A stretch of DNA of 32,116 nucleotides. Source: Bacteroidota bacterium (lineage in GTDB: Bacteria > Bacteroidota > Bacteroidia > CAIKAF01). This document shows positions 15,419 to 29,657 of this stretch, one piece after another (position 1 is the first letter of the stretch; every line of letters starts with the position of its first letter). Below the pieces are notes generated by a model. The model saw nothing but the letters and a program-made list of their open reading frames with translations, had not been told where the DNA came from and ran no database searches. The stretch is taken from assembly GCA_016866335.1 (NCBI GenBank), contig VGMT01000027.1, forward strand, positions 1 to 32,116. Direction: 5' to 3'. The position numbers and the translations under genes were made by a program.

Positions 15419-17752
15419 TTATTTTTTGGCCGCACGGCCTTTTTTCTTGCCCCCGCCCTGAGCCTTATGCAATTCTAGGCATTCTTGCAAGGTTAATTCT
15501 TCGGGAGCTTTTCCTTTCGGAATCTTTACGTTGTCTTTGCCAACTGCTATGTAAGGCCCCCAGCGTCCATTTAGTATTTGAACCTCTGTATTTTCTTCAA
15601 ATACCTTTATCCGTTTTTTAGAATCTGCTTCTCGTTTGGCTTGAATCAGCAAAACAGAGCCTTCCAAATCAAGCGCTAAGGGGTCTTGTTCCTTGGGTAT
15701 CGATACAAATTGGTTGTTGTGGCGTACATACGGCCCAAAGCGCCCTTGACCTACCACCACGGTTTTTCCTTCAAAATCTCCTAGGGTTCTGGGCAACTTA
15801 AATAAGCTCAGGGCTTCTTCTAAGTTGATGCTTTGAATACTTTGGTCTTTTTGCAGGGACGAAAACCTGGGTTTTTCTTCGTCTTCGGCCTCCCCTATTT
15901 GAATCATTGGGCCATACCTTCCAACCAAAGCAAAAACAGGTTTTCCGCTTTGGGGATCTACACCCAATTGCCGTTTTCCTGAAGCCTTTCCTGAAATAGA
16001 TTCGGTTTCTTTAACGGCCTTATGGAAGGGGCCGTAAAAATCCTCGATCATTTGATTCCACTGGCTTTGACCTTCGGCAATTTCATCAAATTGCTTTTCA
16101 ATCTTTGCCGTAAAATGCACATCCAATATCCCCGAAAAATGGGTAACCAAAAAATCGTTGGTTACCATACCTATGTCGGTTGGGAACAACTTTCCTTTGT
16201 CGGCACCGGTCCGTTCGGTGGCCACCGACTTCTTTATTTCCTGGCCTTTTAGGTTTAAAACGGTGTACTTGCGCTCCTCACCTTCCCGCTCTCCCTTTTC
16301 CACATATTCCCGGCTTTGAATCACCGAAATGGTTGGTGCATAAGTCGATGGCCGACCAATGCCTAACTCTTCCATTTTTTTTACCAAAGCGGCTTCTGAG
16401 TAGCGCGGTGGGGGTTGAGTAAACCGCTCGGCAGCACTCACTTCTTTTATGGAAACAGATTCTCCGGCCTTAAGTGGCGGAAGCAATTGCTCGTCTTGCC
16501 CCTCGTTCCCTTCCTCTTCGCCCTCGTCTTCTTCCTTGCTTTCCATATATAAGCTTAAAAAGCCTTTAAAGGTTATGACTTCTCCCCTAGCCACAAAATG
16601 ATGCGGTTGGATTTCATTCGCCTCCAACTTCACGGTTGTTTTCTCCAGTTTGGCATCTGCCATTTGCGAAGCCAAGGCTCGCTTTCTAATTAAATCATAC
16701 AATTTCTTCTCGGCCGCATCTTCTCCGGCCAGCTCTAGATTAAAATCGGTTGGCCGTATGCATTCATGCGCCTCTTGAGCTCCTTTTGCTTTGTTTGCAA
16801 AATTGCGTTCCTTATGGTAATCGGCTCCGAAAATTTGTTCTACAGCTTGTTTGGCAGCTCCACGGGCAAAATCCGATAAATTCACCGAATCGGTTCGCAT
16901 GTAGGTGATTTTTCCGCTCTCGTACAGTTTTTGAGCCAAGGACATGGTGCGCGCCACCGAAAACCCGAGTTTTCGGGCGGCTTCTTGCTGCAAAGTCGAG
17001 GTGGTAAAGGGGGCCGAAGGCGAACGTTTTAGGGGCTTAACCTCCACTCCAGCAACCTTTAAGTTGGCCTTTTTAAGCTTTTCAAGCAGGTCTTGAGCTT
17101 CCGATTCTGAGGAAAGTCGATTGGGCAATTCGGCTTTGAATGATTTCACTCTTGAATCGGTAAATTTTCCTTGAACCTTAAAAAATCGGGTAATGTCAAA
17201 CTGTTCCCGTTCGCGTTCCCGATCGGCAATGAGTCGTACAGCGACCGATTGAACCCGCCCGGCCGACAATTTTGGCTTTACTTTTTTCCAAAGTACCGGG
17301 CTTAATTCATAGCCCACCAGCCGGTCAAGCACCCTTCGGGCCACTTGGGCATCTACCAACCGGTAATCAATTCCCCGTGGCGATTCAATGGCCTTTAAAA
17401 TGGCCGTTTTGGTAATTTCATTGAATACAATGCGGCGGGTTTTTGACTCGTCCAGTTCCAATGTTTTCAATAAATGCCATGCAATGGCTTCCCCTTCACG
17501 GTCTTCGTCGGAAGCCAACCATACCTTTTCGGCGCCCGCAGCCAGTTTTTTAAGCTCGGCAATCCATGGCTTTTTCTTGGGATCTACCTCGTATATAGGT
17601 TCAAATCCATGTTCTAAATCAACGGCCAATCCCTTGGAGGGCAAATCTCGAATATGACCCATTGAAGACTTCACCACAAAGTCTTTACCAAGGTAATTTT
17701 CGATGGTTTTTGCCTTTGCAGGGGACTCAACAATGACCAAATTTTTTGCCAT
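15419..17752 (-). CDS. topA: DNA topoisomerase I (type IA)
   Basis: The 777-residue protein starts with the Toprim domain (VIVESPAKAKTIENYLG with catalytic Glu9; LASDEDREGEAIAWH). It has the type IA core, with GRVQSVAVRLIADRERE and the active-site Tyr284 in ITYMRTDSVNLS, and PPPRYSEAALVKKMEELGIGRPSTYA further on. The C-terminus has several topoisomerase C-terminal repeat units (GRYGPMIQIG, GQGRFGPYVRHNN, NGRWGPYIAVG) and a Lys/Gly-rich tail, with no zinc-ribbon cysteines, as in many Bacteroidetes. It relaxes negative supercoils. A 527-bp gap with a large palindrome precedes it. The arginase-fold gene follows by 6 bp. Confidence 0.97.
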   Translation of the reverse strand: MAKNLVIVESPAKAKTIENYLGKDFVVKSSMGHIRDLPSKGLAVDLEHGFEPIYEVDPKKKPWIAELKKLAAGAEKVWLASDEDREGEAIAWHLLKTLELDESKTRRIVFNEITKTAILKAIESPRGIDYRLVDAQVARRVLDRLVGYELSPVLWKKVKPKLSAGRVQSVAVRLIADREREREQFDITRFFKVQGKFTDSRVKSFKAELPNRLSSESEAQDLLEKLKKANLKVAGVEVKPLKRSPSAPFTTSTLQQEAARKLGFSVARTMSLAQKLYESGKITYMRTDSVNLSDFARGAAKQAVEQIFGADYHKERNFANKAKGAQEAHECIRPTDFNLELAGEDAAEKKLYDLIRKRALASQMADAKLEKTTVKLEANEIQPHHFVARGEVITFKGFLSLYMESKEEDEGEEEGNEGQDEQLLPPLKAGESVSIKEVSAAERFTQPPPRYSEAALVKKMEELGIGRPSTYAPTISVIQSREYVEKGEREGEERKYTVLNLKGQEIKKSVATERTGADKGKLFPTDIGMVTNDFLVTHFSGILDVHFTAKIEKQFDEIAEGQSQWNQMIEDFYGPFHKAVKETESISGKASGKRQLGVDPQSGKPVFALVGRYGPMIQIGEAEDEEKPRFSSLQKDQSIQSINLEEALSLFKLPRTLGDFEGKTVVVGQGRFGPYVRHNNQFVSIPKEQDPLALDLEGSVLLIQAKREADSKKRIKVFEENTEVQILNGRWGPYIAVGKDNVKIPKGKAPEELTLQECLELHKAQGGGKKKGRAAKK

Positions 17753-17905
17753 ACTTCAATTTTACTTTTTGCGCGCTGTCGGCACAAAGAAAAGAAAATA
17801 AAAGTTCAAGCCCTATGAAAAATTGGGATTTAACGGAAAGCCAATCTCAGTCGAAGGTTCAAAATGCTGGAAAAAATGGGGGTTTTAGTGGTTGTATTTT
17901 TTAGG

Positions 17906-18195
17906 GCGGCAGCCGGGCTTTCGTAGCTAGTCCGCGGCGGCAGGTGGCGGGGGCAGCGGGTTTACGGGGGCTCCCAAGGTCGCCTCCGCACAGCGCGCCC
18001 CCGGCACCTGCCGCCTTGCGTTCTAGCTTACTCAATCCCTGCCGCTTTTCCTTTCGGCGGCAGGGATTGAACTAGGTAGCCCACAGGGTGTCGGGCCCTG
18101 GCCCGCGCGGCGCGGAGGCGACCTTGGCTGCCCACGCAAGCCCGCTGGGGCAGAGCCCGGCACACGAGGACTACCTGTGAAAGCCCGACTGCCGC
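17906..18195. repeat. GC-rich nested palindrome of 290 bp with alternative folds
   Basis: Three paired segments share one centre at about 18051: 17906-17933 with 18168-18195 (24 of 28 matched), 17973-17989 with 18112-18128 (16 of 17), and 18032-18045 with 18057-18070 (14 of 14, 11-base loop). Each arm is also self-complementary: 17936-17954 pairs with 17997-18015 (18 of 19), and 18088-18104 with 18147-18165 (imperfect). Each arm hairpin leaves a 42-base loop that holds one member of the 17-bp pair. The GC content is far above the flanks. It lies alone in the 527-bp gap between sufT-type and topA genes; no open frame or transposase is associated. It may be a dispersed non-autonomous repeat or a structured RNA. 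Confidence 0.85.
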
Positions 18196-18279
18196 ACAAA
18201 AAAGAAATCTATTTTTCCATAAAACACCGGCGCCGACCCGAAATTTGGGTGGGGTTCAAGAGCGAAAAATCGGCAAGGG

Positions 18280-18585
18280 CTACAGAAATCCGAGTTCCAA
18301 CTGGGCCTCTTCGCTCATCATGTCTTTGTCCCAAGGCGGTTCAAAGGTGAGCTTTACCCGAACCGTTTCAACCCCTTCTATTGTTTTGACCTTTTGTTCG
18401 ATCACGACCGGAATTTCCTCGGCCGAAGGACAATTGGGTGAAGTTAAGGTCATTAAAATGCTAACTTCTTTGTTGTCTGGACTCAGCTCGATTTGATAAA
18501 TCAAACCCAATTCATACACATCAACCGGTATCTCAGGATCGTAAACCGTTTTAATTTTTGCAATTACCTGGTCTTCCATCGTCAT
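18280..18585 (-). CDS. DUF59/MIP18-family Fe-S maturation protein (SufT-type)
   Basis: The 101-residue form starting at 18585 (MTMEDQVIAKIKTVYDPEIP) carries the DUF59 hallmarks: DPEIPVDVYELGLIY at about residues 16-30 and MTLTSPNCPSAEEIP near residues 45-59 with the conserved Cys52. The frame runs to 18609, but that would overlap the end of sufE and adds no family sequence. SufT/MIP18 proteins help mature Fe-S proteins, often tied to lipoate or aconitase maturation. As last gene of the suf cluster, 4 bp after sufE, the role is well supported; the exact client is not. Confidence 0.88.
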   Translation of the reverse strand: MTMEDQVIAKIKTVYDPEIPVDVYELGLIYQIELSPDNKEVSILMTLTSPNCPSAEEIPVVIEQKVKTIEGVETVRVKLTFEPPWDKDMMSEEAQLELGFL

Positions 18586-18589
18586 ACTG

Positions 18590-19012
18590 TTAAGCGTTTT
18601 GCAGGGCAATGGCGGTACGTTGAATCGTATTTAACATGGACAAAAGTCCGTTGCTTCGCGTTGGAGACAGATGTTGACTCAATCCGATTCGGTCAATGAA
18701 ATCAGGCTTAAAAGCCAGAATTTCAGCGGGCGTTCTTCCAGAATACAGGCTTAAAAGCATGGCAACCAAGCCCTTAACAATAAGCGCCTCGGAAGAAGCA
18801 TAAAACACCATTTTTCCGTCTTTCATTTCATGGTCCAACCACACCCTAGATTGGCAACCGCGTATCAGCATGTTGTCGGTTTGGGCTCGGTTTTTAGGCC
18901 AATGTAGGTCCCTGCCTAAATCCATCAGGTATTCGTATTTTTCTTCCCAGGAATCAAACATGGCGAAATCTGATTCGAGCATATCGGCCTTTTCGTTCAT
19001 GGAGGGATTCAT
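18590..19012 (-). CDS. sufE: SufE-family sulfur acceptor
   Basis: The 140-residue protein has the SufE pattern: WEEKYEYLMDLGRDL, the acceptor cysteine in MLIRGCQSRVWL (Cys53), FYASSEALIVKGLVAMLLSLYSG and a C-terminal GLSQHLSPTRSNGL. It takes persulfide sulfur from SufS and passes it to the SufBCD scaffold. The start at 19012 overlaps the sufS stop as ATGA; an open frame continues upstream into sufS sequence but lacks family similarity, so it is rejected. Confidence 0.93.
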   Translation of the reverse strand: MNPSMNEKADMLESDFAMFDSWEEKYEYLMDLGRDLHWPKNRAQTDNMLIRGCQSRVWLDHEMKDGKMVFYASSEALIVKGLVAMLLSLYSGRTPAEILAFKPDFIDRIGLSQHLSPTRSNGLLSMLNTIQRTAIALQNA

Positions 19013-25460: not shown

Positions 25461-25461
25461 G

Positions 25462-25536
25462 TCGGGGTGAGAGGATTCGAACCTCCGACCACACGCCCCC
25501 CAGACGTGTACTCTAACCGGGCTGAGCTACACCCCG
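25462..25536 (-). tRNA. tRNA-Pro (anticodon GGG)
   Basis: The minus strand folds as a 75-nt cloverleaf. The acceptor stem is CGGGGTG/CACCCCG (7 bp), followed by TA, a D-stem GCTC/GAGT, an anticodon stem CACGT/GCGTG with loop CTGGGGG (anticodon GGG), and a T-arm GGAGG-TTCGAAT-CCTCT. The discriminator base is A, and the 3' CCA is not encoded. It reads CCC and CCU proline codons. It stands alone between thiL and the T9SS substrate gene. Confidence 0.95.
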
Positions 25537-25655
25537 CTTTCCCTTTAGAAGGGGTGCAAATGTAATACCCGCCTGTTACATTTGCAAATCAAGTGAGAAC
25601 CAAAAACCGCGGCATTGATTTGTTTGCTCTTGGTAGATTGTATTCCTTCATCGCA

Positions 25656-25686
25656 TTGCCATTCAACATCCTAATGCGTACCTTTG
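25656..25686 (+). promoter_or_regulatory. Promoter of the large T9SS substrate gene
   Basis: TACCTTTG at 25679-25686 is an exact -7 element, and TTG at 25656-25658 lies 20 bp upstream as the -33 element. Transcription would start near 25692. It fixes the gene start at 25701 or 25707 and excludes the in-frame GTG at 25593. Confidence 0.65.
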
Positions 25687-25706
25687 ATTTTTACACCCCA
25701 ATGTGT

Positions 25707-28700
25707 ATGTCTAAAATCTCCCTTTTTTCTCTTGCGTTAACCTTGCTGGCCTACCCAATTCAATTGATGTTTGGGCAAAAAGGGTTCGTCGAAAATAAAG
25801 GTCAATGGCAAAGTCCATTTCAATACAAAACGGATATTCCCTCCGGCGCCCTTTTTTTCACAAAATCTGGCTGGAAATTTCATTGGGCAGACATGGAACC
25901 CTTGCATGCAGCTCATACAAACGGGCAGCCCGAGGAGATAATCCTTAAATCGCATGCGGTAGAGGTCAACTTTGTAAATCCTTTTGGCCCCCTTCAATGG
26001 AAAGGTCAATCGCCCGGTAAAACTTGCTACAACTATTTTCTAGGAAACGACCCTTCCCTTTGGGCATCAGGCCTTTATGCCAACCAATATTTGGTTGCTC
26101 AAGATGTTTGGGAAGGAATTGCCTGCCGTTTTTTCTCGGATGGACATTCGATGAAGTATGAGTTTATGGTTGAAGCGGGAGCATCGCCACAAGAAATAGG
26201 CTTGGAATTTAAGGGAGCTCAATCGCTGTACTTGGATAAAGGCAATTTGCTCATTGAGACAACATTGGGAACCGTTTCAGAAAAACCACCCGTTGCTTAC
26301 CAAGTGATGGGCAGCGGCGATACCGCATGGATTCCATGTTCATTTATCTTGCAGGGCGAAAAATTGGGCTTTAATCTGGGCAACTACAATAAAAAATTGG
26401 AGCTTATTGTTGACCCCTATTTGGTTTTTGGCTCATTTTCGGGTTCCACCACCGACAATTGGGGGTATACAGCCACCTACGATTCAGATGGGTTCTTGTA
26501 TTCTGGGGGTGTGGCCAACGGCATTGGGTACCCTACCAGCAACGGTGCATTTCAAACCGTTTGGAATGGCGGGCATGGGTTTGTTTTTCCGTCGGATGTT
26601 ACCCTGTCGAAATACGATACCTTAGGGGGCTTTATGGTATGGTCTACCTATTTGGGGGGCAGCGGCAGCGAGTTGCCGCATAGTTTGGTTGTAAACAATT
26701 TTGATGAACTCTTTGTGTACGGAACAACCGGGTCTGCCGATTTCCCAATAACCCAAAATGCCTTTGATGCCTCTTTCAACGGGGGGGCAAACGGTACAAC
26801 CACCTCCATGAACATTAATTACAACTCGGGTTCCGACATTTTTATTAGCCGTATTTCTGCAAATGGAACTGCACTCCAGGCATCTACCTTCGTAGGTGGG
26901 ACGGGAAACGATGGACTAAACCAGGGTGCCCCCCTGCGTTTTAATTATGCCGATGAGGTTAGGGGCGAAATCATTATTGACAACCTCAACAATATCTATG
27001 TAGCCACCGTTACAGCCTCTTCCGATTTTCCTGTTACACCAAATACGGTTCAAACTACCTATGGTGGTGGGGGCCAAGATGGTATTGTGTTTAAAATGGA
27101 CAATGGACTTACAACAATGATTTGGGGGTCGTATTTGGGAGGCTCGAACAACGACGCCATCTATTCATTGGATTTATACAACAACGACGATTTATTGGTT
27201 ACCGGAGGAACAAATTCCTCCAATTTCCCCACTGCAAATTCACCCTTCAACACCTATTATGGCGGAATTTGCGATGGATTTGCCTCCCGCTTTTCTGCCA
27301 ATGGCAACACCTTGCTGAACAGCATGTATGTGGGCTCACCTACCTACGACCAAAATTATTTTATTCAACTTGATGCCTCAGAGAACGTTTATGTTTTAGG
27401 TCAAACCAATGCGCCCGGCACCTATTACATTCAGAATGCCATTTTTAATATACCCTCGGGGGGGCAGTACATTCGAAAATACACGCCGGATTTTTCCGCC
27501 CTTATTTGGTCAACCGCCTTTGGCACCGGCGACGGGAATCCAGATATCTCTCCTTCGGCCTTTTTGGTGGATGTATGCAGTAAAATTTACCTGTCTGGTT
27601 GGGGTGGCCTGGTCAACAATGGTTTTTATACCGGCTCAACCACCTCGGGCATGCCCATAACCCCAGGCACGGCCTTTCAGCAGTTTACCACCGGGTCCGA
27701 CTATTATTTGATGGTGATGGACGACAACGCCAATCAACTCATTTATGGATCCTTCTATGGAGGTTCTATCAGTGCTGAACACGTGGATGGTGGCACCAGC
27801 CGATTTGACAGAAAAGGAATGATGTACCAGAGTGTTTGCGCTGGCTGCGGAGGCAATTCGGATTTTCCCACTACCGTTGGAGCCCATTCTGTAGTGAACA
27901 GTTCTCCCAACTGCAACAATGGAGTGTTTAAATTCTCCTTTGATTTTCCGACCACCATCGCTGATTTCAATGTACCCTCATCGGTATGCCTACCCTCTGC
28001 TATGTTTTTCCAAAACAATTCGGCGGGAGGCACCAATTACCTTTGGAAATTTGGAGACGGAAGCACCTCTACCCTAACCAATCCAGCCCATACCTACGCC
28101 CAATCTGGGGTATATGAAGTAACCTTGTATGCTTATGATAATACGGGTGGCAATTGCAATGCGGTGGATTCTATTAAGAAGAAGGTAGTTATTTTAGACA
28201 ACAATACCGAAACAGCAGATACGGCCCTTTTGTGTTTGGGTGAGTCCATTTATATTGGCCTAACTCCAAACGGCGACCCCACGGTGAATTATACCTGGAC
28301 ACCAACCGTGGGCCTTTCAGACCCCAACAGTTCCTTTCCTTTGGCCTCTCCTACCACTTCAACAACCTACAGATTAATCTTAAACAACGGCAGTTGTTCC
28401 GACACGCTGTTTGTGCCTATTGTGGTTGAAACGCTCATTTCGCTGCCCGACACCAGCATTTATATTTGCCCTGGCGAATCCATACTTCTTGGAAATGCTA
28501 GCATTTCTTCCTTTGCCGATTTTCAATGGTCTCCAAGCATAGGTTTGCAAAATGATTCCAGCCAGTTCACCTTGGCTACCCCCCCTAGCGATACCACGTA
28601 TAAACTTGTGTACAGCCTTGGTTCGTGCAAAGACTCTCTTTTGTATTCCATTGAATATCGAATTAATGGCCTAGTAAATCTGCCTCCTTTGGCCTTGTGC

Positions 28701-29657
28701 CCTGGCGATACCATTGCCTTAAATCAAGCTGACACCACAGGCAAGGTATCTTTTACCTGGATTCCTTCCTCTGGCCTTTCAAATTCAACTGTACCGTTCC
28801 CGAATGCCTTCCCCTCCGTTAGTACTACGTATCGGTTGGTGGCCTCAGACGGCTTTTGCATTGACACCATAGTCCAACCAGTAATGGTGTTAGACCCTAC
28901 CACTTTTGCCGGAACAGATAAACTCATTTGTCAGGGGGAAAGTGTTGCTTTGGGCTTTAACGACACCATTGGTTTAGGCTACCTTTGGTCTCCGCCTGCT
29001 GGTCTTTCAAATCCGAATATTCCCAACCCCATTGCCACCCCAACGGGCAGCACCACCTATGTTTTAACTACCTTTTTCCCTGGTCAGCCGGGGGTTTGTG
29101 AGCGTACCGACACGGTGGCAATTCAGGTCCATACCGATTTTCCCATTGCCGGATTTGACTGGATAGCTTCGGGTGGATGTTTGGGCATGAAGCTCGCCTT
29201 AAATGACTTGTCGCAAAATGCAGATTCGGTACTTTGGCTTGTTAATGGTCAACCCTTAACTCCTGGTCAGAATGTGGCTCAAATCCCCTACGATTCTACG
29301 GCAATATTGACCCAAATTGTATGGAACGGGCCATGCAGAGATACCTTATCCTTAAATTTTGCCGGCGGCAGCATGTCCGATTATTTAAAATTTGTCATGC
29401 CGAACCTTTTCACCCCCAATGGCGATGGCTTGAATGAATTGTTTTGCCCCGTAGGCCTTGAAAACGAATTCTGTTTTACCCTTTGGATTTACAACCGCTG
29501 GGGGACACGGATTTTCCAGAGCAATGGAAATACAACCTGTTGGGATGGGGTGGTTGACCATTCTGGGGTTCCAGCTTCCGATGGGGTGTATTATTACGTT
29601 ATTCTATTGGACGACAATGTTACCCAAGAACAAGGCTTTTTGCACCTGTTTAGATAA
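25707..29657 (+). CDS. Large secreted repeat protein with PKD domain and T9SS type B sorting domain
   Basis: The 1316-residue product starts with a Sec signal (MSKISLFSLALTLLAYPIQ, then FGQ). Residues about 22-245 form a beta-rich domain (KGFVENKGQW, NYFLGNDPS, YDVWEG-like QDVWEGIACRF) typical of Bacteroidetes SBBP proteins. Residues about 245-750 hold beta-propeller repeats (for example WSTYLGGSGSE, SADFPITQNAFD, SDFPVTPNTVQTTYGGG). A PKD domain follows at about 752-830 (YLWKFGDGS...NPAHTY). Four Ig-like repeats of about 77 residues come next, each starting C-x-GES/GD and ending STTY-R/K-L. The C-terminus (about 1228-1316) is the CHU_C/type B sorting domain: LFTPNGDGLNELF, IYNRWG, WDGVV, GVYYYVI. 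It should be exported by the T9SS and displayed or released at the surface. Ligand unknown; adhesion is an inference. An ATG at 25701 is also possible. Confidence 0.9.
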   Translation: MSKISLFSLALTLLAYPIQLMFGQKGFVENKGQWQSPFQYKTDIPSGALFFTKSGWKFHWADMEPLHAAHTNGQPEEIILKSHAVEVNFVNPFGPLQWKGQSPGKTCYNYFLGNDPSLWASGLYANQYLVAQDVWEGIACRFFSDGHSMKYEFMVEAGASPQEIGLEFKGAQSLYLDKGNLLIETTLGTVSEKPPVAYQVMGSGDTAWIPCSFILQGEKLGFNLGNYNKKLELIVDPYLVFGSFSGSTTDNWGYTATYDSDGFLYSGGVANGIGYPTSNGAFQTVWNGGHGFVFPSDVTLSKYDTLGGFMVWSTYLGGSGSELPHSLVVNNFDELFVYGTTGSADFPITQNAFDASFNGGANGTTTSMNINYNSGSDIFISRISANGTALQASTFVGGTGNDGLNQGAPLRFNYADEVRGEIIIDNLNNIYVATVTASSDFPVTPNTVQTTYGGGGQDGIVFKMDNGLTTMIWGSYLGGSNNDAIYSLDLYNNDDLLVTGGTNSSNFPTANSPFNTYYGGICDGFASRFSANGNTLLNSMYVGSPTYDQNYFIQLDASENVYVLGQTNAPGTYYIQNAIFNIPSGGQYIRKYTPDFSALIWSTAFGTGDGNPDISPSAFLVDVCSKIYLSGWGGLVNNGFYTGSTTSGMPITPGTAFQQFTTGSDYYLMVMDDNANQLIYGSFYGGSISAEHVDGGTSRFDRKGMMYQSVCAGCGGNSDFPTTVGAHSVVNSSPNCNNGVFKFSFDFPTTIADFNVPSSVCLPSAMFFQNNSAGGTNYLWKFGDGSTSTLTNPAHTYAQSGVYEVTLYAYDNTGGNCNAVDSIKKKVVILDNNTETADTALLCLGESIYIGLTPNGDPTVNYTWTPTVGLSDPNSSFPLASPTTSTTYRLILNNGSCSDTLFVPIVVETLISLPDTSIYICPGESILLGNASISSFADFQWSPSIGLQNDSSQFTLATPPSDTTYKLVYSLGSCKDSLLYSIEYRINGLVNLPPLALCPGDTIALNQADTTGKVSFTWIPSSGLSNSTVPFPNAFPSVSTTYRLVASDGFCIDTIVQPVMVLDPTTFAGTDKLICQGESVALGFNDTIGLGYLWSPPAGLSNPNIPNPIATPTGSTTYVLTTFFPGQPGVCERTDTVAIQVHTDFPIAGFDWIASGGCLGMKLALNDLSQNADSVLWLVNGQPLTPGQNVAQIPYDSTAILTQIVWNGPCRDTLSLNFAGGSMSDYLKFVMPNLFTPNGDGLNELFCPVGLENEFCFTLWIYNRWGTRIFQSNGNTTCWDGVVDHSGVPASDGVYYYVILLDDNVTQEQGFLHLFR

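Follow-up and report, generated by a model that had tools for sequence, protein, structure and literature searches.

The GC-rich palindrome that lies between topA and a SufT-like gene in the stretch of DNA analysed here (the window, 32,116 nucleotides) is a composite of two copies of one unit of about 147 bp, which stand head to head across 11 bp. We are close to certain of the identity and family of the element, which is a dispersed hairpin of about 147 bp belonging to the Flavo-1 superfamily. The reading that we favour, as a probable one, is that the unit is a REP/BIME-like DNA hairpin element and constitutes an elongated branch of this superfamily.

A sequence-only reading of the window had placed the palindrome at 17906-18195 and described three complementary segments nested about a single centre. 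The palindrome is present, its limits are better set at 17898-18203, and a repeat search of the window recovered the three inverted repeats in the geometry described: an outer one (17898-18004/18097-18203, arms of 107 nt, 74% complementary), an inner one (18007-18045/18057-18095, arms of 39 nt, 72% complementary) and a self-complementary repeat of the left arm (17936-17954/17997-18015), for which the earlier figures of 18 paired bases out of 19 (95%) and a 42-nt loop were obtained again. The GC content of the element is 0.71, compared with 0.38 and 0.48 in the flanks and 0.46 in the window, and the interval is intergenic, as had been noticed, between topA (15419-17752, minus strand) and the SufT-like gene (18280-18609, minus strand). 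When both strands of 17896-18205 were folded, the structures were far more stable than those of shuffled sequences, whether as plus-strand RNA (-204.6 kcal/mol, z -10.8), as minus-strand RNA (-207.9 kcal/mol, z -10.1) or as DNA (-119.3 kcal/mol, z -11.4), and in each case none of 100 shuffles was as good. The palindrome is real and well beyond chance, with a fold z of about -11. It had also been proposed that the element can switch from one long stem to a multi-armed form and back. Alternative folds are indeed available: as RNA, the two arms folded separately total -177.9 kcal/mol, the single long stem alone reaches -197.2 kcal/mol, and the unconstrained optimum given above is a hybrid. A functional switch found no support, as nearly all units of the family are solitary; the bistability of the 290-bp form is incidental, because two homologous units in inverted orientation give a long stem automatically. 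Similarly, the 17-bp pair reported between 17973-17989 and 18112-18128 does exist, with 16 of 17 positions paired, but it does not demonstrate contact between loops: pairing is expected from the duplication, because each side is the conserved apical core of one of the two homologous units, which run in opposite directions. Elsewhere in the window, a tRNA-Pro(GGG) gene (25461-25536, minus strand) is divergent from an open frame of 1354 amino acids (25593-29657, plus strand).

The composite nature of the palindrome became apparent from a similarity search of the genome to which the window belongs (G000; 2.45 Mb in 62 contigs), because almost all of the 81 matches covered one half of the element. 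Unit L occupies 17898-18045 on the minus strand, with its head (GCGGCAGGG) at 18045 and the end of its A-tail at 17898, and unit R occupies 18057-18203 on the plus strand, with its head at 18057 and an A-tail (CAAAAAA) ending near 18202. Both heads (GCGGCAGGGATTGA) face the centre of the palindrome, which is the 11-bp spacer at 18046-18056, and the A-tails point outward, that of unit L at the 5' end of topA and that of unit R at the 3' end of the SufT-like gene. From a MAFFT alignment of 44 copies (A1) we made a covariance model (R1), which in cmsearch scored unit L at 153.5 bits (17899-18045) and unit R at 149.2 bits (18057-18202). The basal 5' arm of unit R (18057-18071, plus strand, GCGGCAGGGATTGAA) pairs with its basal 3' arm (18177-18195, plus strand, GTGAAAGCCCGACTGCCGC) in the order GCGGC/GCCGC stem, GGG/CCC, A.G, two pairs and tandem G.A/A.G; the basal 5' arm of unit L is at 18031-18045 on the minus strand (GCGGCAGGGATTGAG). 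The apical core, defined from the alignment of 44 copies, lies at 18112-18132 in unit R (plus strand, GCGGAGGCGACCTTGGCTGCC) and at 17966-17989 in unit L (GCGGAGGCGACCTTGGGAGCCCCC on the minus strand). In the 44 copies it consists of GGC/GCC, in most of them G.A/A.G, a closing C-G pair and a CTTG or TTTA tetraloop, whose ends covary.

The earlier suggestion of a dispersed element proved correct, inasmuch as the half-element recurs at least 150 times in the source genome, all of these units having R1 E-values of 2e-24 or lower. In an unbiased scan of two contigs (C1 and C3, together 311,857 bp) about 30 units were left after removal of antisense echoes, which corresponds to a unit every 10 kb or so and, extrapolated from these two contigs, to about 240 units per genome. 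The unit is also abundant in sister freshwater Flavobacteriales: R1 found at least 52 units each, among the matches listed, in three lake and Caspian MAGs of the same genus (G001, G003 and G004; ErkenSummer_bin-6618, LaPlata_bin-1703 and casp15-mb.160), 44 diverged copies in each of two further genomes of this genus (G002 and G005), and weak relatives in other families. No carrier of the apical core was found among viral contigs, and the element had no match in the plasmid collection. At one locus of another genome (G056, L068 1280-1398) a TPP riboswitch-like match adjoins a unit, at 47.8 bits compared with a gathering cut-off of 54.3.

The kinship with Flavo-1 (RF01705) was established in steps. 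Rfam searches of the window, at the gathering cut-offs and at E<=10, gave no Flavo-1 match and returned only chance miRNA-like matches to GC-rich hairpins; the Flavo-1 gathering cut-off (42 bits) was not reached in the window, the rest of its genome was likewise free of RF01705 matches, and at the units of the G005 loci Rfam found no Flavo-1 either. R1, in turn, had no direct match to canonical Flavo-1 loci, so intermediates were needed to join the families. Relatives reach 30-32 bits with RF01705, below the gathering cut-off, and three single elements from three other genera or families were recognised by both models, which agreed in strand and ends: L047 (R1 E 7e-12, Flavo-1 32.3 bits), L051 (1e-5, 30.1 bits) and L144:7825 (4e-6, 31.4 bits). 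A second model, R2, was made from 43 aligned intermediates, with the sequences of the window's own genome and the Rfam-significant ones left out. R2 scores both window units at about 120 bits (120.0 for unit L, 119.8 for unit R) and recovers Rfam-significant Flavo-1 loci, with E-values that must be taken as rough (L160, 2.7e-7; L176, 1.9e-4; L177, 3.9e-4). Register and GGGATNGA...GANAGCCC module are nevertheless concordant, and the exact basal module (GGG, A.G, two pairs, tandem G.A) was present in 18 of 24 loci of the own genome, 9 of 16 intermediates and 10 of 24 Flavo-1 loci. Judged by these models, the window units form a long, GC-rich branch of a Flavo-1 superfamily wider than the Rfam model. 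The two branches share the strand, the ends and the basal module followed by an internal-loop stem, and both are dispersed intergenically in Bacteroidia without strand bias (Flavo-1 was present in 75 of the 198 Bacteroidia genomes sampled, often with the full number of matches listed per genome). They differ in length, about 76 consensus positions in Flavo-1 compared with 147 in the window units, and the window units are GC-rich, have a conserved apical core and reach their high copy number in a 2.45-Mb genome.

Each unit is one long rod under strong selection. RNAalifold applied to A1, an alignment free of fitting to the model, predicted a single rod of 46 pairs, of which 25 showed compensatory changes. 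In a larger alignment of 130 copies (A3), which was fitted to the model and is hence biased towards it, 97.3% of the cells were paired compared with 77.2% after shuffling, changes on both sides occurred in 38 of the 46 pairs, and the covariation score was 0.475, compared with 0.111 in shuffled and at most 0.066 in slid controls. Compensatory change across copies, by which the earlier proposal of a selected structure was to be judged, is thus massive. The two basal Watson-Crick pairs also covary in the relatives (UU/AA, UA/UA, UG/CA, CA/UG), and at the apex a second GA/GA pair closes a CUUG or UUUA loop with covarying ends, as read on the top strand.

Perfect pairing could in principle be maintained without selection, by mutational templating (quasipalindrome correction) alone. 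Comparison of orthologous copies provides some arguments for this: 20 comparisons yielded 137 double Watson-Crick changes and 10 single breaks, with almost no G.U intermediates (4 single changes to G.U), and in G003 compared with G004, which are close sister species, most changes were single, with single broken pairs predominating. Templating, however, would erase the A.G, the tandem G.A and other mismatches, yet the six noncanonical basal positions showed 0 changes out of 78 between orthologous copies, while shaft columns differed in as many as 10 of 13 comparisons (77%), and the basal A.G and tandem G.A were constant even where the orthologous rods largely differed. We therefore regard templating alone as very improbable. 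Where two copies are at least 0.85 identical, double changes were still above expectation. Some orthologous copies are only 0.60-0.66 identical, not above random paralogues (mean 0.74), therefore unit replacement or conversion at the sites must also occur.

The units have a characteristic position relative to genes. According to counts made on 729 kb of G000 and G003 with a simple codon-usage gene caller, and therefore approximate, units were found in 20 of 57 convergent (35%), 38 of 211 tandem (18%) and 10 of 71 divergent (14%) intergenic regions. The A-tail faced a gene 3' end in 42 of 71 units, in 29 of these 42 at no more than 32 bp from the stop codon with a mode of 5-6 bp, and a gene 5' end in the other 29, always at a distance of at least 27 bp. 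Behind the SufT-like gene a unit occurs in G000, G001, G003 and G004. Its topA-proximal partner was found only in G000 and G001 of these four species; the earlier idea of a supercoil-sensitive cruciform specific to topA is not supported, given this absence from the orthologous site in two sister species and the genome-wide occurrence of the units. It must be noted that many orthologous loci were selected for carrying the core, which inflates the apparent retention; unbiased contigs (C1, C3, K23 and K29) pointed in the same direction.

Two explanations start from this placement. The first, also raised earlier, is that the palindrome is the intrinsic terminator of the suf operon, for which its location behind the last suf gene and its stable hairpin would speak, but a U-tract after the hairpin is absent on both strands, the T-run precedes the hairpin for transcription leaving sufT, and a terminator scan gave 0 matches where 1.1 were expected in shuffled sequences, which makes this explanation extremely improbable. 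The second is more general: a hairpin at mRNA 3' ends, working on either strand, could block 3' exonucleases or separate convergent transcripts, as has been proposed analogously for REP/BIME in E. coli. The strong preference for stop codons, the enrichment in convergent regions, the retention behind the SufT-like gene in four species and the nearly equal folding of the two strands (mean difference 0.2 kcal/mol) are in line with such a role. It does not account for the units in 10 of the 71 divergent regions and for the 29 of 71 A-tails directed at gene 5' ends, and it leaves the invariance of the G.A purines on one strand unexplained, because any stable hairpin would serve; we consider it unlikely.

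A structured non-coding RNA, made by transcription of the top strand of each unit (now or in the past) and acting in its folded form, is what the label of Flavo-1 in Rfam presupposes: Flavo-1 is catalogued as an sRNA, Weinberg et al. 2010 (PMC2864571) listed it as "probably RNA", and in one survey it was among the most abundant sRNA families (PMC9029176). The conserved noncanonical G.A motifs and the CUUG/UUUA tetraloop on one strand are compatible with RNA, and so is the excess of G.T over A.C mismatches on the top strand (65 compared with 28), which marks the top strand as the one that folds, without by itself distinguishing RNA from single-stranded DNA. Against RNA speaks that a sense bias is lacking: in tandem arrangements of the same 729 kb, 22 units were in the bottom-strand and 19 in the top-strand orientation with respect to the mRNA, and 23 Rfam-significant Flavo-1 loci were likewise without strand bias (7 vs 6). 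RNA helices under selection use G.U freely, yet G.U made up only 1.1% of the consensus pairs and 1.5% of the minimum free energy pairs, compared with 8.2% in shuffled sequences. The copy number of about 240 per genome does not suit an RNA gene either, and a scan of the window copy detected neither a promoter-like nor a terminator-like site. In the published F. psychrophilum transcriptome Flavo-1 was sense, antisense and untranscribed (Guerin et al. 2021, PMC9723704). With these observations we rate the RNA explanation as rather unlikely. The absence of sense/antisense bias, the rarity of G.U and the missing RNA signals at the window copy suggest that it is the DNA strand that matters, and, judged from sequence patterns, a DNA-level mode of action may be taken as evenly balanced.

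It is interesting to compare the element with REP, BIME and REPIN sequences. These are likewise numerous intergenic imperfect palindromes near stop codons, few in divergent regions and with doublets in inverted arrangement, and their folded single strand is thought to matter, as we propose here. The placement of REPs close behind stop codons has been described (PMC3733652). REPs differ in being 20-40 bp long and in having GTAG or CGTC as a tag at their foot and, in the GTAG type, a RAYT gene, whereas the present element is about 147 bp long, has the ends GCGGCAGG...GCCGCCC-A(n), carries no such tag and has no RAYT in the genome. The preference for gene 3' ends with avoidance of divergent regions is shared, and so is the pairing of inverted units at short spacing: among 237 matches there were 8 close pairs (7 of them independent), all 8 facing head to head, 11-87 bp apart. 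The element is best filed as a new long branch that is REP/BIME-like in behaviour while falling outside the definition of REPs. In length, large imperfect palindrome and gene-border position, ERIC (a 127-bp intergenic repeat of enterobacteria) and comparable MITE-like repeats are similar, and they too have no known mobiliser (PMC2229807). ERIC is not known to have the invariant tandem G.A base seen in our element.

Several candidate mobilisers were considered and rejected. Y1_Tnp (PF01797) is absent from G000 and G001, which argues against a RAYT, and the Y1 genes of the relatives carry short hairpin arrays of their own; large units near these genes match the general unit density. Tandem short hairpins were seen at Y1 (IS200-like) genes in G005 (L103, 1999-2150) and G003 (L098, around 1399-1857), and these flanking hairpins (GACCCCTTCGGGGTC; ACCCCGTAGGGGT) are apparently REPs belonging to those genes. 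The 3' A-tail, reminiscent of SINEs, brought a retro-element to mind, but the reverse transcriptase domain PF00078 (RVT_1) is absent from G000, G001, G003 and G004. A composite transposon bounded by inverted units about 1.2-2 kb apart (L034, L036, L220) was dismissed as well, since the genes between them are ordinary ones (formyltransferase-like, MmcQ-like, toxin-antitoxin) and include no transposase. The nearby inverted units at these three loci (L034 4260-5766, L036 1503-3008, L220 3444-5769) are 0.95-0.99 alike, vs the paralogue average of 0.74, which suggests local copying or gene conversion.

Copying or conversion inside the genome follows also from units that are 0.96 identical at sites with different flanks (L017/L018). 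Some other near-identical units (L009/L010 and L006/L014) share about 60 bp of left flank, which suggests segmental duplication and not movement. Presence/absence differences were observed for the topA-proximal unit and between L034:4260 and L189, with flanks too diverged to delimit an empty site. In G001, the site orthologous to L034:4260-4407 holds an array of short GTAG-tagged palindromes (L189, about 2694-2839; GTAGAGACGCAAAATTTTGCGTCTC), so such spots accept unrelated hairpin repeats.

The favoured reading, a REP/BIME-like DNA hairpin, can be put together as follows. One strand of each unit, the one recognised by R1 and Flavo-1, folds into a rod. The base of the rod (GCGGC-A-GGG, A.G, two Watson-Crick pairs, tandem sheared G.A/A.G) is invariant, the sequence of its shaft changes freely while the pairing is always kept, and its apex, with a CUUG/UUUA-type tetraloop, is conserved. 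Selection may act on a single DNA strand in its folded state, as it would be exposed on the template of the lagging strand or by cruciform extrusion, and a putative protein would recognise the G.A base and the tetraloop of this rod. The family may have spread by transposition as a non-autonomous REP-like repeat, its units now residing at gene borders, mostly right behind stop codons, and the head-to-head doublets would be its BIME/REPIN-like form. Some facts count against this explanation: the mobiliser domains looked for (Y1_Tnp and RVT_1) are missing from the own genome, one strand is favoured (G.T over A.C), as RNA would also show, GA motifs and CUUG tetraloops are familiar from RNA, the orthologous loci compared did not yield a clean empty site from which a target could be defined, and the units mostly persist at orthologous sites. 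Such persistence is no less compatible with a resident functional element than with a jumping one.

If the estimate of about 240 copies of 147 bp is right, a single unannotated element makes up about 1-1.5% of a compact 2.45-Mb genome. Flavo-1, on record since 2010 as a probable RNA of unexplained function, is now tied to a much larger and more structured element. A further-reaching reading, to which we give slightly less than even odds, takes Flavo-1 out of the RNA families and makes it the short branch of a superfamily of single-stranded DNA hairpin repeats that extends across the Bacteroidia; such a superfamily would have its own recognition or mobilising protein, recurrent head-to-head doublets and selection of the DNA fold at gene 3' borders. 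Should the DNA reading be true, one would look not for an RNA but for a protein with affinity for the hairpin in single-stranded form.
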